Shown here piece by piece: positions 70 to 6,028 of a stretch of DNA of 6,028 nucleotides; positions within the stretch are counted from its first letter, which is position 1, and each line of letters opens with the position of its first letter. The DNA comes from Pseudomonadota bacterium (GTDB taxonomy: Bacteria > Myxococcota > Bradymonadia > UBA4248). The position numbers were made by a program, and so were the translations under genes. The notes under the pieces are model-generated. The model did not search any database. It was given only the letters and a program-made list of their open reading frames with translations, and was not told where the DNA came from. Where the stretch lies: contig JAGBXG010000507.1 in the NCBI GenBank assembly GCA_017629415.1, positions 1-6,028 on the forward strand, given 5' to 3'.

Positions 70-89
70 TGGGGGCTATGCCTCCCCCA
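70..89. repeat. G5/C5 palindrome (REP-like)
   Basis: TGGGGG at 70-75 pairs with CCCCCA at 84-89 around an 8-base loop; an inner GGC/GCC pairing is an alternative. A CTGCAGA sequence follows at 99-105. Near the other end of the window the reverse strand shows the same order (G5, CT-TGCC, C5, then CTGCAGA). The two sites may therefore be diverged copies of one genomic repeat in opposite orientations. Not followed by a clean T-run, so a terminator is less likely. Confidence 0.5.
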
Positions 90-321: not shown

Positions 322-2394
322 ATGGTATTTACCATTCTCATCATTGACAATCGCAAGACATATGAAAATTTTGAAGCCTATCGTTTTATCTTTCAGCCGT
401 ATATTGCGGCAGGAAAGATGGCGATTTGCCTTTGGAACGAAGACGGCGACAGGGTGGAAACTGCTTTGCCGCGGCTGAAGGAGTTAACGCGAGATCGGGA
501 TACCTGGCGAGCTATTGTGGTGAATCCGGATGGCTTCAATGAGGAATATCAAAAAGTGATGAGAAGCCAGAATCCGTTTGATTATTCGGAGATTGACAAG
601 GAAGACGGTCCGCATGAAAGTCCGATTCCTTTGGTGCGTTTGACCCATATTTTGGGCGGATATCCTTCTACTCCCCCTAAAACCTTTGAAGAAGCGTTTG
701 AATGTTACGAAAAATCTGAAAATGACGATTGGGATGACGGCTGGAATGACGATTGGAGCAGCCAAACATTCGAACATGCGTTGAAAAGTCAGACATTGCG
801 TCACGATGAACTCACAGAAGAAGATAGAGAAAAATATACATTAAAATCTATTTATATCGAAACAAGACATCATGAAGATATTTTAAAGGGTTATCAGGAA
901 CTGGCTCAAAAATATGATAGTTTAATTTCAAAACCCTGCGAAATATTATTAACCGGATTGCGTCATTATTATCCCAATGACAAACTCCGGCTTGAAGAAG
1001 TTTGGAAAAAACCGCATGAATCGGCAAGTTCTGCCTTCTGCGAACGCAATAAATATCCCGGAAATTGCAGATTTTTATTTGCAGAACCCACGCATTATGA
1101 CGAAAATCATCTGCAAAAATTATATGCCGAATTTTGGCTTTCTGTACTCACATTAGCCCTTAACCGCGTGCCTTCGGCGACCTTGCAAGCCTATCGTTTG
1201 TATCGTCTTGGTATTGATATCGATTTAAGAAAATTAGACGATGCCTTGAACACACAGCTCGATAAATTAGAATCCGTCAAACAATATTTGACCCAAAAAC
1301 GCGCGGCACTGCCGGAATTTACCTTAAAGAGCTCGAGCAATATTCTGGAACGCCAGGAAATTAAAGTTCTCACCGAGACTTCGGACGAAAAAGAAGATTA
1401 CGCCAATAACATCGATAAGGGCTCAAAAAACGTCGTTGCACATGGCGCATTTCAAACAGACAGGTCAGAAATTGCCCAAATGGCCTCCATGCTCAAAGAT
1501 CCCAGACGCGCCATTGAACGTGCCGCCAGAACCGTGCGCCGCAAAGCAGATGGCTTCTTGGGCGAACAAATTTTGCTCGATGAATTTCAATATCATGATT
1601 TGATTCAGGAAACCGCCGAACTCGAAAAAAAGGTCTTTTCCATTCGACCACGCAATACATTTGACCGCAACAGCGTCCAAAAATCTAAAGCCGATTATCA
1701 AAAAGCCAATCATAATATGCCCAAATCCGCCATGACCATGCAGGAACAAATCGTTCTCATGCTTGTCGCCGTAGGATTGGCGCTGTGCGGCTTCATTCCC
1801 TACTTCATCGGCCTTACCGACAGCTCCCCCTTAACCTTTTTCCTCGGGCTCATCATCTGTGTCATCGTACTCGCTGTGACTGCATTCGGCGGATATTTGG
1901 CTCTGATCCCCTTCAAACATCAAGTCGAAGACCAAATTCTTAAAAATGATAAAATTATTCATAAAGAATTTGATAAACGCGTTGCCATTGAAAAAAAATT
2001 CGGAAATCATTTTACCAATATCTGCACTTATATGAAAGCTCAGGCCCTGATCTCCGGCGCATGCATCGGACAAGATGAAGCTCAGTTAAAACGGCATCAG
2101 TATTTCAATGATTTGCGCATCACGGATTCCGTCATTGAAAAATTAGAAAATTGGATGGCACACTTCCGTATCGAACGAGTTCCTGAAACGAAAACAAATA
2201 TCGAAAACTTTTTTAATGAATCTTTGCCAATGCAAGACAATCACATTTTCTGGCTCCCCATTTCCGGCGAGGATACCAAAATACCGCTCAATACATCCGG
2301 TCATAAGATAGATACGCCGTTCGAATTTGTCACGCGCCTCACCATTGCCCGCGAAGAAATCTTTGATACAAACAACGATGGAGAGCAGCCATGA
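322..2394 (+). CDS. uncharacterised two-helix membrane protein (690 aa)
   Basis: Function not recognised. Residues 1-70 alternate strands and helices (TILIIDN, MAICLWNEDG, WRAIVVNPDG) like a small Rossmann or receiver-type domain, but where a receiver has its acidic pair and phospho-Asp the residues look like Asp-Asn and Asn, so any such domain is probably inactive (inference). Residues 100-119 carry a conserved-looking PIPLVRLTHILGG segment. An Asp/Trp-rich microrepeat lies at 134-145. Residues 260-335 and 380-440 look helical. Two hydrophobic helices, about 476-497 and 503-529, are joined by a short loop; basic residues on both flanks suggest both termini are cytosolic. Residues 530-620 are charged and helical, possibly coiled coil. 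The start is fixed by an in-frame TAG at 316-318 with no earlier ATG; the ribosome-binding site is poor (AGG at 307-309 or 317-319). It overlaps the next gene by four bases, suggesting a joint membrane complex. Confidence 0.9.
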   Translation: MVFTILIIDNRKTYENFEAYRFIFQPYIAAGKMAICLWNEDGDRVETALPRLKELTRDRDTWRAIVVNPDGFNEEYQKVMRSQNPFDYSEIDKEDGPHESPIPLVRLTHILGGYPSTPPKTFEEAFECYEKSENDDWDDGWNDDWSSQTFEHALKSQTLRHDELTEEDREKYTLKSIYIETRHHEDILKGYQELAQKYDSLISKPCEILLTGLRHYYPNDKLRLEEVWKKPHESASSAFCERNKYPGNCRFLFAEPTHYDENHLQKLYAEFWLSVLTLALNRVPSATLQAYRLYRLGIDIDLRKLDDALNTQLDKLESVKQYLTQKRAALPEFTLKSSSNILERQEIKVLTETSDEKEDYANNIDKGSKNVVAHGAFQTDRSEIAQMASMLKDPRRAIERAARTVRRKADGFLGEQILLDEFQYHDLIQETAELEKKVFSIRPRNTFDRNSVQKSKADYQKANHNMPKSAMTMQEQIVLMLVAVGLALCGFIPYFIGLTDSSPLTFFLGLIICVIVLAVTAFGGYLALIPFKHQVEDQILKNDKIIHKEFDKRVAIEKKFGNHFTNICTYMKAQALISGACIGQDEAQLKRHQYFNDLRITDSVIEKLENWMAHFRIERVPETKTNIENFFNESLPMQDNHIFWLPISGEDTKIPLNTSGHKIDTPFEFVTRLTIAREEIFDTNNDGEQP
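721..756 (+). repeat. three tandem 12-bp units encoding (N/D)D(D/G)W
   Basis: AATGACGATTGG (721-732) and its exact copy (745-756) flank a diverged unit, GATGACGGCTGG (733-744). In frame they give NDDW-DDGW-NDDW at residues 134-145 of the first protein, within an acidic region between the N-terminal domain and the central helical part. Identical outer units suggest recent slippage or duplication. The result is a flexible acidic linker with regularly spaced Trp residues. Confidence 0.8.
2380..2385 (+). promoter_or_regulatory. ribosome-binding site of the second gene
   Basis: GGAGAG lies five bases before the ATG at 2391, inside the last codons of the first gene. It is far stronger than anything before the first gene's start. 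It fixes the start of the second protein and supports coupled translation through the ATGA overlap. Confidence 0.8.
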
Positions 2395-5300
2395 ACACTA
2401 TCTTAAGTTTGATCAAAACCATCACTTTTTGCATGCCCTTTGTCTTTCTTTGCATCGCATGCTATAAAATAAATCTGCCCAAAGCTCATCGATATAAACA
2501 ATATCCTCTGCCCGTTTTCGCCATTGCCTATTGTTTAATTGCTATTTTCGGACTTGAGTTTATTCAGGCTTATATCTTCATAAAGTTAGAAAATTTCTTC
2601 GAACAGTCCAAAGACTTGATGGATATTATTTCTATCATTTTGCCTGAAGAAGCATTTGCAAAGATTTTGGCCGATATGAAAAAATTCATCGAAGGCCTCA
2701 TGATCTATGCCATGAATACGGTTTTTGTAACTGGTTTTCTGGCATGCAAAACCTTCATACTCCCCTTGTGTAAAAAATTCTGGAATGATGAAATCACGCG
2801 CGTCACTTCTATTAAGTTTTATAGAAAAGCCCCATGTCATCTGACCGAAGACCTTGCCAACAGCCTGAATATTAACTTCAAAAAGAAAAAATCTGCCATG
2901 ATTTGGATCCTGCGTCCCGATTATCGACAGAAAAAATATTATTTCGGCGGTTTCTATATCGCACTTTTTGTCGTATCTATGTTGCTGTTTGTCATATCAC
3001 AGGTTTTCAAGGATTATGAGGTCTTCCAATCTTCATTCTATCCCGTGTTCGGCGTGCTGATTTTAGGAGAAATCTTTGCCTTCTTAAACGGCCTGGATGA
3101 TGTCGAAATCTGTTCAGAAGATGAAACTGAAAAAGAAGAACCTGACGAAGAAGAAGAAACTCAAGAAGAAGACACCAAAAAAGAAAAGAAAAAACTCAAT
3201 TACCTCCTCTCTTTACCGCCGAATCAAAGAAAAGATAGATTGCGCGTCGACTTGCGTATTTTATTCATAGATCGCGATTTGCAGGATTCCTATATCGAAC
3301 CATCTGCCGAAACTCCTTCCATTTCGGAATGGCAAGCTGCCTTCTTGGATATCGAAGACAATCATACTGCCGAAATTGCCTTGGAATATTTTTCATCGCT
3401 TGAACAGGAAGGCAAAAACTTTAATATCAACGATATTCATTCTGCCATTCGCCTCATCCAAGGCAAAAGTGTCCTCATCTGCAATCCATTCTATCAAGAT
3501 CTGACGCATTACCTGATGCTGCCCATCATGCGGACTCTCCTGAGACATCGCAAATGCCTGATTCTGTCCGGCCGGGAATCGGCTGTCGAAGACATTAAAG
3601 AATGGATGACTGAAGCCACCCAGGAATTTGTCGGTACTCCAGGCCTCTGGCGCGTCAATGTTCTGTCTGAAAATCCCGCCGATACAGATATCGGCATCAT
3701 GCGTCCAAGTGATATTTATCATTTGAAGCTTCACCAACAAAACGCAGATTTCTTCGAACGCGTTGGCTTTGTATTGCTCATCGAACCCTCCCACATCCTG
3801 GCCACCGGACAAATCGGCTTGAGTATGATTGTGCACCGCATGCACACTCGGTCTAAAGAAGACAAATTATATACACCGCCCGTCTTCTGTGCCTGCGATC
3901 GCAACTGCGATGGACTTGTCGATGTCCTCTCACACACATTGCGTACCAATCTGACCGAAGTCGCCGCAACCCCAGGCACGCCGGCAGGATGCTCACAAAC
4001 AACCTGGCGAGCCGAAGGAACATCCGTTCACAACATTCTGTGGCCCAATATCGCGCGTTTTTTGGATCTTGGCACCTCACTGGCAGCAGCAGCCATGAAA
4101 AACCATGTTCCTGCTGTGACCTGGATAAGCTCCGAAAAATTCCCTGTCATCGACATGAAATGGTTCGCAGGACAATACTACCGGCAAATTTGCCAATACG
4201 CAGGCCTCCCCACCAGCCAGGCTGCCTTCAATCAACGCTTCGAAGTCCAGGCAAATCTCTGGAAAGGCGGCATCCTCCCCGAACGCTTCCTCATCCTCGA
4301 AGACGAATTCCAAAATCTCTTTGAACTCCACCGCATCTACGCTTCTCGTGCGGATTCATATATCTATCTGAATGTTATCAGCGAAAATTATATTTTGCGC
4401 GATTATATGGTCGCCAATTTAAGCACATTCATGCACGATCCCAAAGCTATCCCCACGATCGTGCCCGAATTTGCCAGAACAGAACGCAATACAGCCCTCA
4501 AGCTCGTCATGATGATGGCTGCCGCGCCCCTGTCCGAAACCGAAATTGCCCATGAATTCACCCTATGCGGCATCCCCACCACTTCCGTCTATCAAACCTT
4601 GCAAAACCTGCTCGCCAGGCACTGCAACATGAAACCCGGTTCACACGGCTACGATCTGACAGAAACCTCCGAAGAAAACGGCAGAAGCAAACTCGAAAAA
4701 CGTTATTTCATCGACCAAAATAACGAAATCTACCGCTATGCCCAAAATCTCACCCCCGCTTACTTCATTACAGAAGACGAAACCGGACACAAACACTTGC
4801 TCGGCGCCATGCTCTACGGGCACGTTTATCAAGCCTATCTGCCCGGCCAATTCATCGTTCACGAAGGCAAATACTACGAAATCCGCGCCATTACGTCCGA
4901 AAATGGCGTCATCTTGCGCCGCGCCGCCGATCACATCAATCACCGCAACACCTATCGCCAAAACTGCCGCATCGCCCTGTCAAAATGGCAAGACGAAACC
5001 AGCATGGGCGCACAAACATCTTATTCAGATATCGTTTTCCAACGCGGTACTGCCACCTTAGACATCCAAACCGACGGCTACATCGAAATGCCAGACCTGC
5101 ACGACTTCTCCGCTGCAAGATTTATCGCCGTCAACAACATTCCAACGCGTCAATATATCAACAAAACCGTCCTGCGCATTTCTCTGCCGAACACTACGGT
5201 TCGACAGCGCCTTACTCTCTGTCTGATCCTGAACGAAATCTTTAGAACCACATACCCAGATTCGCAATCCTATATTCATGCCTCCACTGAACTCGGCACT

Positions 5301-6028
5301 TTAGCCGACGCCCTCGAAGGCAATTTAAAATATATCATTCACGCCTTCTCGACGGAAAATAACAATATATCCAATGAAACAATTCAAAATACAGAAAATA
5401 TTCAAAATACATCTCAAACAATTCAAAACACACATAAAACTATCGACAAGCCAATTAAAAATATAGAAAACATTGATGAACTCAATGAAAACATCGATGA
5501 ACTCAATGAAGATGAAGATATTTGGCAAATTCTCAATGACAATCATTTAGAAAATATAGAAAATGTTGACATTAAAAATATTGAAAATATAGAAAATGTT
5601 GACATTAAAAATATAGAACCCAAAACAGAACCGCAATCGATTCCGCAAACACCCCCTGAAATTCTGGAACAAGCCCCCGACAAACTTCCCGAAGACGTCA
5701 ATGCGATTGCAGATTCCAAGGAACCCAGCCCCGTTGCAAAATGTGATGCAGAGCCCTCCAAAACCTCTGCAGACACACAGGGGGCAGAGCCCCCTGCGGC
5801 GCTATTGGCAAGCCAATACGCGCCTTTTCTTCATCCACATGTCGCATGTATTTACAATATAATATTCACATATCAAAACAATACACCAAATAAACATCAT
5901 CCCTTTTACCTCATTATCGCATTTTATATCCCCCATCATATTCATAAAGCGGTTGGTGCGCGCACATTGCGCAAAACTGTCATTCCATCGTTTGTGCACA
6001 TTTCTCTAAAAAAGCAGCTTCGGAGAGA
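2391..6028 (+). CDS. membrane-anchored degenerate SF2 helicase-like protein, 3' end not in window
   Basis: An unbroken frame of 1212 codons runs to the window edge. Predicted membrane helices lie at about 5-26, 39-65, 100-127, 183-205 and 212-234; basic loops at 25-38 and 128-182 fit an outside N-terminus and cytosolic C-terminal part. An acidic linker follows (238-262). Residues about 327-515 follow the order of a DEAD/DEAH first RecA-like domain: HSAIRLIQGKSVLI, a Walker A-like place reading NPFYQDLTH, KCLILSGR, DIGIMRPSDIYHL, and VLLIEPSH in place of DEAH. Catalytic residues are missing. A second RecA-like part (about 550-680, with RFLILEDEFQNLFELHR) lacks the QxxGRxGR motif. Then come a possible winged helix (698-747), a beta-rich segment (803-866, LPGQFIVHEGKYYEIR) resembling MrfA-type helicases, and a DUF1998-like part to about 988. 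After that the tail is repetitive and low complexity, then passes a hairpin element; the real stop may be lost, frameshifted or beyond the window. Likely a non-hydrolysing scaffold or nucleic-acid binder at the membrane (inference). Confidence 0.85.
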   Translation, partial: MNTILSLIKTITFCMPFVFLCIACYKINLPKAHRYKQYPLPVFAIAYCLIAIFGLEFIQAYIFIKLENFFEQSKDLMDIISIILPEEAFAKILADMKKFIEGLMIYAMNTVFVTGFLACKTFILPLCKKFWNDEITRVTSIKFYRKAPCHLTEDLANSLNINFKKKKSAMIWILRPDYRQKKYYFGGFYIALFVVSMLLFVISQVFKDYEVFQSSFYPVFGVLILGEIFAFLNGLDDVEICSEDETEKEEPDEEEETQEEDTKKEKKKLNYLLSLPPNQRKDRLRVDLRILFIDRDLQDSYIEPSAETPSISEWQAAFLDIEDNHTAEIALEYFSSLEQEGKNFNINDIHSAIRLIQGKSVLICNPFYQDLTHYLMLPIMRTLLRHRKCLILSGRESAVEDIKEWMTEATQEFVGTPGLWRVNVLSENPADTDIGIMRPSDIYHLKLHQQNADFFERVGFVLLIEPSHILATGQIGLSMIVHRMHTRSKEDKLYTPPVFCACDRNCDGLVDVLSHTLRTNLTEVAATPGTPAGCSQTTWRAEGTSVHNILWPNIARFLDLGTSLAAAAMKNHVPAVTWISSEKFPVIDMKWFAGQYYRQICQYAGLPTSQAAFNQRFEVQANLWKGGILPERFLILEDEFQNLFELHRIYASRADSYIYLNVISENYILRDYMVANLSTFMHDPKAIPTIVPEFARTERNTALKLVMMMAAAPLSETEIAHEFTLCGIPTTSVYQTLQNLLARHCNMKPGSHGYDLTETSEENGRSKLEKRYFIDQNNEIYRYAQNLTPAYFITEDETGHKHLLGAMLYGHVYQAYLPGQFIVHEGKYYEIRAITSENGVILRRAADHINHRNTYRQNCRIALSKWQDETSMGAQTSYSDIVFQRGTATLDIQTDGYIEMPDLHDFSAARFIAVNNIPTRQYINKTVLRISLPNTTVRQRLTLCLILNEIFRTTYPDSQSYIHASTELGTLADALEGNLKYIIHAFSTENNNISNETIQNTENIQNTSQTIQNTHKTIDKPIKNIENIDELNENIDELNEDEDIWQILNDNHLENIENVDIKNIENIENVDIKNIEPKTEPQSIPQTPPEILEQAPDKLPEDVNAIADSKEPSPVAKCDAEPSKTSADTQGAEPPAALLASQYAPFLHPHVACIYNIIFTYQNNTPNKHHPFYLIIAFYIPHHIHKAVGARTLRKTVIPSFVHISLKKQLRR
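5383..5432 (+). repeat. in-frame TTCAAAAYACA short repeats (IQNT)
   Basis: TTCAAAATACA occurs at 5383-5393 and 5401-5411, and TTCAAAACACA at 5422-5432. The starts are 18 and 21 bases apart, both multiples of three, giving IQNT three times (residues 998-1001, 1004-1007, 1011-1014). They begin the low-complexity tail of the second protein. Confidence 0.75.
5466..5507 (+). repeat. tandem 21-bp duplication (ENIDELN x2)
   Basis: Two adjacent 21-base units (5466-5486 and 5487-5507) differ at one base (ATT versus ATC, synonymous for Ile). Each encodes ENIDELN, at residues 1026-1032 and 1033-1039. The in-frame unit length and silent difference suggest the region is translated. Confidence 0.9.
5550..5615 (+). 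repeat. tandem 33-bp duplication (ENIENVDIKNI x2)
   Basis: Two adjacent 33-base units (5550-5582 and 5583-5615) differ only at the last base, again a silent Ile change. Each encodes ENIENVDIKNI (residues 1054-1064 and 1065-1075). Near identity implies recent duplication. Copy number may vary between strains. Confidence 0.9.
5778..5828. repeat. tandem hairpins with T-run, terminator-like, inside the open frame
   Basis: Hairpin one is CAGGGGG (5778-5784) with CCCCCTG (5790-5796) and a five-base loop. Hairpin two is GGCGCTATTGGC (5798-5809) with GCCAATA plus GCGCC (5812-5824), with one bulged C at 5819. TTTT at 5825-5828 follows, as in a Rho-independent terminator. Such a structure normally sits between genes, yet the frame of the second gene passes through it without a stop, giving GAEPPAALLASQYAPF. 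The first hairpin resembles the inverted copy at 70-89. Confidence 0.6.
5956..5973. repeat. GC-rich palindrome and hairpin
   Basis: GTGCGCGCAC (5956-5965) is a perfect palindrome, and TGCGC (5957-5961) can also pair with GCGCA (5969-5973). The surrounding 5829-6028 stretch is A/T-rich. In the open frame it encodes a His/Tyr/Ile/Asn-rich sequence unlike the preceding protein. This looks more intergenic than coding. Confidence 0.4.

Follow-up and report, generated by a model that had tools for sequence, protein, structure and literature searches.

A putatively membrane-tethered pseudohelicase of the YprA/MrfA fold with ATP motifs replaced throughout its family

Background

Can a protein retain the build of a DNA helicase when the motifs of its motor have been replaced, and what could such a protein be kept for? 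The question is raised by a 6,028-nucleotide stretch of a Bradymonadia genome (contig JAGBXG010000507.1, assembly GCA_017629415.1; the whole stretch is hereafter called the window). Its plus strand carries two genes: gene A (322..2394, 690 amino acids (aa)) and gene B, which starts with an ATG at 2391, shares 4 bases with gene A and is still open at the 3' end of the window, with 1212 codons visible (2391..6026, + strand). Neither protein matched a Pfam or NCBIfam family above cut-off. An earlier prediction made from the sequence alone (the original prediction) had described positions 3369-5354, which correspond to aa 327-988 of gene B, as a membrane-tethered helicase-like protein; the strings it quoted (HSAIRLIQGKSVLI, NPFYQDLTH, KCLILSGR, DIGIMRPSDIYHL and VLLIEPSH) are all present in that frame. 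Below we present the evidence that the core of gene B almost certainly folds like the helicase MrfA while lacking the classical motor. Whether the protein is a membrane-tethered pseudohelicase of the YprA/MrfA fold that works as a switch, responding to a ligand or nucleic acid within a vWA-tubulin envelope system of possible immune function, we regard as evenly balanced.

Results and discussion

Fold of the gene B core

The core of gene B (3174..5360, + strand; aa 262-990) was predicted with confidence by AlphaFold2 (pLDDT 91.5). When the PDB was searched with this model, the DUF1998 helicase MrfA accounted for the four best matching chains (best E 7e-22), and the next fold followed at E 4e-9. 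In the model, two RecA-like lobes come first, then a helical region and finally a canopy-like region rich in beta strands; this is the fold and domain order of YprA/MrfA proteins. The segment order of MrfA-type SF2 helicases, which had been proposed on basis of motif order, is thus borne out. A beta stretch of the core (PGQ...RRAADH; 4842..4934, + strand; aa 818-848) aligns with the HPG stretch of MrfA-like proteins. An origin of gene B within the YprA/MrfA (DUF1998) branch of the SF2 helicases is probable.

The assignment to the MrfA/DUF1998 type held for fold and order and failed for the DUF1998 part itself. Pfam MZB (DUF1998, PF09369) gave no hit with the window protein and is absent from the families listed for alignment A1 (19 members). 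A four-cysteine cluster is not conserved either, cysteines being present in half of alignment A2 (see below) only at positions 484, 500, 502, 506 and 538; on the structural side, the verdict on a DUF1998/MZB zinc part applies to the model as far as aa 990, where it ends.

Replacement of the helicase motifs

Relatives of gene B were collected as proteins (50 by a single-sequence search and 116 by a profile search) and as DNA, for which a contig search yielded 173 related stretches, the best 80 of which were kept as loci. Alignment A2 (75 rows) excludes L013 (partial), L019 (large insert) and L007, while L021, L044 and L059 have no long gene B open reading frame (ORF). Together with 155 proteins it makes up a set of 230 rows, in which the component sets overlap and rows gapped at a site were dropped there. 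Because the 80 loci had been selected with the patterns [CS]DGL[VL]Dx[LM]SH and SxxYLL[RK]DYM, conservation of those letters in the locus rows is partly built in; for that reason the counts were redone on the protein rows, which were not collected with these patterns.

None of the classical motifs was recovered in either set. At the place of motif I (3483..3503, + strand; NPFYQDL, aa 365-371), the Walker A signature GK[ST] occurred between aa 360 and 376 in 0 of 221 rows, and at that of motif II (3774..3794, + strand; LLIEPSH, aa 462-468) DExx occurred in 0 of 226. The same holds for [ST]AT at motif III (3888..3935, + strand; CACDRNCDGLVDVLSH, aa 500-515; 0/225 rows) and for GRxGR at motif VI (0/223), the place of which is preceded by an EDE element (4299..4349, + strand for both; EDEFQNLFELHRIYASR, aa 637-653). 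In the protein rows alone the numbers were 0/146 for GK[ST], 0/151 for DEx[HD], 0/150 for [ST]AT and 0/148 for GRxGR. The absence of a GKT, the reading EPSH instead of DEAH and the missing QxxGRxGR, all noted earlier for the single sequence, are therefore properties of the whole family, as the suggested alignment of homologs makes clear for motifs I and II in particular. Considering the loss of the ATP motifs, DNA unwinding by gene B is very unlikely.

A GKS that the original prediction did not discuss stands at aa 358-360 of the window protein, and 116 of 223 ungapped rows have it as well. It is at odds with a Walker A, since it precedes the first RecA strand (model residues E99-102, i.e. aa 360-363) and the Walker A loop should come after that strand; the full GxxxxGK[ST] around this position was found in 0 of 222 rows.

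The lost motifs have been replaced by other, highly conserved residues. Within the 230-row set, P[FY][YF] occupies the motif I place in 214 of 221 rows, [ED]P[STA] the motif II place in 220 of 226 and DxxxDG[LI]xDxxSH the motif III place in 222 of 226, and EDE is found in 221 of 223; the last two were recovered in 147/151 and 146/148 of the protein rows, respectively. Residues D503, D507, G508, D511, S514 and H515, as well as E637, D638 and E639, are invariant in A2 (75/75 each). The two motif VI arginines, which the window retains, persist in the protein rows (R648 in 147/150, R653 in 146/150). Moreover, 19 of the 54 positions that are kept in at least 97% of the protein rows lie within the 78 motif-place positions, out of 705 (p 7e-7). 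The near-fixed replacements, together with the family-wide absence of the motifs, suggest that the ATP cleft was remodelled before the family spread and has been maintained since, which would amount to rebuilding and not decay. The retained non-enzymatic role that had been put forward, for instance that of a nucleic-acid sensor, is likewise supported, as far as can be judged from sequence.

The same residues could be read differently. The former ATP cleft might form a new active site, in which E465, D503, D507, D511, H515, E637-D638-E639, R648 and R653 catalyse, for example, metal-dependent hydrolysis or nucleotide chemistry, making gene B an enzyme of a new kind. The invariance of eight of the residues mentioned above (D503, D507, D511, S514, H515 and the EDE triplet) and the persistence of the motif III pattern and of EDE in the protein rows fit this idea, as charged residues of such kind at a cleft are typical of catalysis. 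Yet no known catalytic signature was matched, and binding of a ligand or partner would give the same pattern; we consider this explanation unlikely. Alternatively, the helicase fold could be a plain, ligand-free scaffold that keeps gene A and the tubulin-like protein introduced below in place at the membrane. That would accord with the loss of motifs I, II, III and VI, with the membrane segments and with the fixed gene order, but conserved positions are strongly concentrated at the former motifs, which suggests a selected pocket and renders a mere scaffold quite unlikely.

Membrane association

Upstream of the core, gene B has a predicted membrane part (2400..3086, + strand). A hydropathy scan revealed hydrophobic segments at aa 4-22, 40-58, 99-117, 188-206 and 214-232 and a weaker one at aa 76-94, and an acidic linker connects the last of these segments (to aa 232) to the core. 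Lysine and arginine abound between aa 117 and 188, with 14 K+R against 5 D+E in aa 121-182, which would place the core in the cytoplasm behind five membrane crossings. The hydrophobic segments agree with the membrane tether that had been anticipated.

Gene organization in the relatives

When the ORFs of the 80 loci and the window were clustered, a single prevailing arrangement emerged, in which a vWA gene is followed by a tubulin-like gene, gene A and finally gene B; in the relatives, gene B is the last gene of the operon. Among loci with sufficient DNA reach, tblastn recovered gene A upstream in 72/72, the tubulin-like gene in 66/67 and the vWA gene in 59/60, L014 being the sole exception for both of the latter. 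The tubulin-like protein of locus L001 matched Pfam Tubulin_2 (7.6e-59) and a tubulin-type G box was present in 58 of the 59 long members. The first-gene proteins reached VWA_2 at E 0.01 in 3 of 14 cases, and the metal-site string D.S.S is found in 61 of 62; the vWA protein also carries a membrane segment.

The genes that follow gene B are variable. Of 62 readable loci, 20 have a member of the RyR-like or Castor/Pollux-like clusters among the next genes and 7 have one of a TIR cluster; the cluster names derive from samples (Castor_Poll_mid in 5/20 and RyR in 3/20 proteins, TIR in three proteins). In locus L006, a TIR protein that carries an HD domain at its C-terminus is encoded downstream of the operon (15518-18490), and FtsK/SpoIIIE-type ATPase genes lie immediately 3' of gene B relatives in L037 (13937-18511) and L065 (14275-17742). 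Transglutaminase-like ORFs were observed downstream of gene B relatives in L003 (14157-15368) and L072 (21382-22686), and the same domain was matched by 3 of the 19 members of A1.

Beyond the core, 74 of the 78 long gene B ORFs have an EDSxxDxG segment, which may resemble the end of DUF1998. Of the 69 complete relatives, 56 have a zincin-like HExx[HR] motif past aa 950, and a further 8 have it in a separate ORF directly downstream; L010, L011, L019, L032 and L057 showed no HExx[HR], fused or downstream. The Pfam names obtained for the C-terminal part are weak (DUF6055 in 11/19 and DUF6782 in 10/19 members of A1, at E 0.1), DUF6782 being a putative metallopeptidase family. In the precomputed Pfam annotation, a subtilisin-type domain (PF00082) precedes the gene B part N-terminally in 4 of 50 relatives (P0017, P0018, P0023 and P0024).

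Relation to known systems

Gene B shares its overall fold and domain order with the YprA/MrfA (DUF1998) helicases, including those of DISARM, Dpd, Druantia and ARMADA. It differs from them in that its family lacks Walker A, DExx, SAT and GRxGR, in the absence of an MZB/DUF1998 match or four-cysteine cluster, and in having N-terminal membrane segments and, in the relatives, an operon with vWA and tubulin-like genes. According to the 2025 YprA survey (PMC12458937), the four-cysteine cluster has likewise been lost from the Dpd helicases; its main text makes no mention of tubulin, vWA or transmembrane.

The operon itself recalls another group. Conflict systems centred on a GAP1-N2 GTPase, with tubulin and vWA components, have been described for Firmicutes and Actinobacteria (Kaur et al. 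2020, PMC7159879). In the sections of that paper considered here, inactive enzyme domains are reported as frequent, the tubulin-domain protein has an extended C-terminus and the vWA protein has membrane helices with the vWA domain outside; the phrase 'inactive helicase' does not occur in them. The likeness concerns the tubulin-domain protein with its extended C-terminus, the membrane vWA protein, the occurrence in Firmicutes and Actinobacteria and the frequent inactive enzyme domains, and the fixed core with variable neighbours in the relatives is reminiscent of these conflict systems as well, as far as those sections go. In contrast, the operon of the relatives has one tubulin-like and one vWA gene, where the Firmicutes GAP1-N2 systems, as covered there, have two of each. 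A GAP1-N2 protein was found in 0 of 16 genomes with gene B relatives and in 1 of 14 control genomes (Corynebacterium glutamicum). A tubulin-domain protein and a membrane vWA protein are encoded near gene B in the relatives but not within the window. No account of the operon was found in the open-licence literature among the matches listed. We regard the gene B family as a new, pseudoenzymatic form of a known fold, found in an operon similar to a known class of conflict systems, and do not count it among the active helicases.

A possible switch at the inner membrane

A membrane-tied clamp that is encoded with a tubulin-like GTPase, a membrane vWA protein and often a peptidase resembles a switch in which an outer signal is combined with an inner one. 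In such a scheme, the two-lobe clamp would be retained while the former ATP cleft bears a different, strictly kept set of residues, and gene B would sit at the inner membrane as a cytoplasmic switch. The clamp might be moved by binding a nucleic acid or a nucleotide, or the tubulin partner, as its ligand, and the change could be relayed to gene A, the tubulin-like GTPase and, in most relatives, the fused or adjacent zincin-like peptidase. As a result, a surface signal sensed by the vWA protein would be integrated with the inner signal.

Several observations weigh against gene B being such a pseudohelicase switch. Profile-profile comparison of the gene B family with active helicases gave a weak match (probability 14%, with four proteins), and a second comparison gave 0.3% (with 17 of 18 proteins, L128 not being recovered); in the latter alignment NPFYQDL was not paired with motif I and the GKS at aa 358-360 fell near the template SGKS. 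Both alignments are partly collinear with MrfA-like helicases. Furthermore, the vWA and tubulin-like genes lie outside the window, so that the system is deduced from relatives with at most 48% identity, and no upstream operon gene was matched by positions 1-321. The window, with genes A and B only, has no zincin, unlike most relatives, and its gene B is among the four long ORFs that lack EDSxxDxG.

The two latter points, together with the end of the reading frame, might indicate that the window copy is a decaying or truncated gene with uninformative motifs. Past the core, a low-complexity tail still shows coding signal (5361..5750, + strand); the codon signal fades after about 5750 and no stop follows, and the remainder of the open frame (5751..6026, + strand) is probably not gene B protein. 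Nevertheless, more than 1,100 codons can be read without interruption and the coding signal runs through the core, in line with the long intact frame noted before, and the replaced motifs are the norm of the family. In a quick tree, the window clusters with L004, L009, L010 and L011 (SH-aLRT 98), the first two from ruminant omasum bins titled Proteobacteria and the last two from bins titled Myxococcales; L010 and L011 likewise lack the zincin motif and terminate in a stop. We consider decay or truncation of the window copy very unlikely.

A more far-reaching version of the switch, which we regard as rather unlikely, is a bacterial membrane receptor complex of an undescribed class. Here the rebuilt cleft of a dead YprA-type helicase would recognize a ligand, perhaps nucleic acid of foreign origin or a nucleotide that acts as a signal, and the helicase would relay this via a tubulin-like assembly to the zincin-like peptidase and variable effectors (TIR, RyR-like, Castor/Pollux-like). 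If true, it would constitute a convergent bacterial counterpart of the receptors built on SF2 helicase folds. A helicase-fold family that has swapped its ATP motifs for another conserved set and appears membrane-tied, beside a bacterial tubulin-like gene, would extend a helicase family known for its part in DNA repair and phage defence by a branch of pseudoenzymes. Because single deletions and assays are feasible for all four core genes, the role of vWA-tubulin gene clusters becomes directly testable.

Other features of the window

A G+C-rich palindrome of the type GGGGGCAGAGCCCCC is located close to both ends of the window (71-85 and 5780-5794). Allowing at most 3 mismatches there were 3 matches, one of which is the opposite strand of the same site, with 0.04 expected; a search of the 80 relative loci did not recover it. 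Gene A (+ strand) consists of an alpha/beta N-terminal part, long helices and a small C-terminal beta part, and has hydrophobic segments at aa 477-495 and 504-522. In alignment A3, which holds 66 of the 70 listed gene A references, W62, N84, P85 and P205 are invariant (66 rows) and both membrane segments occur with a long helix.
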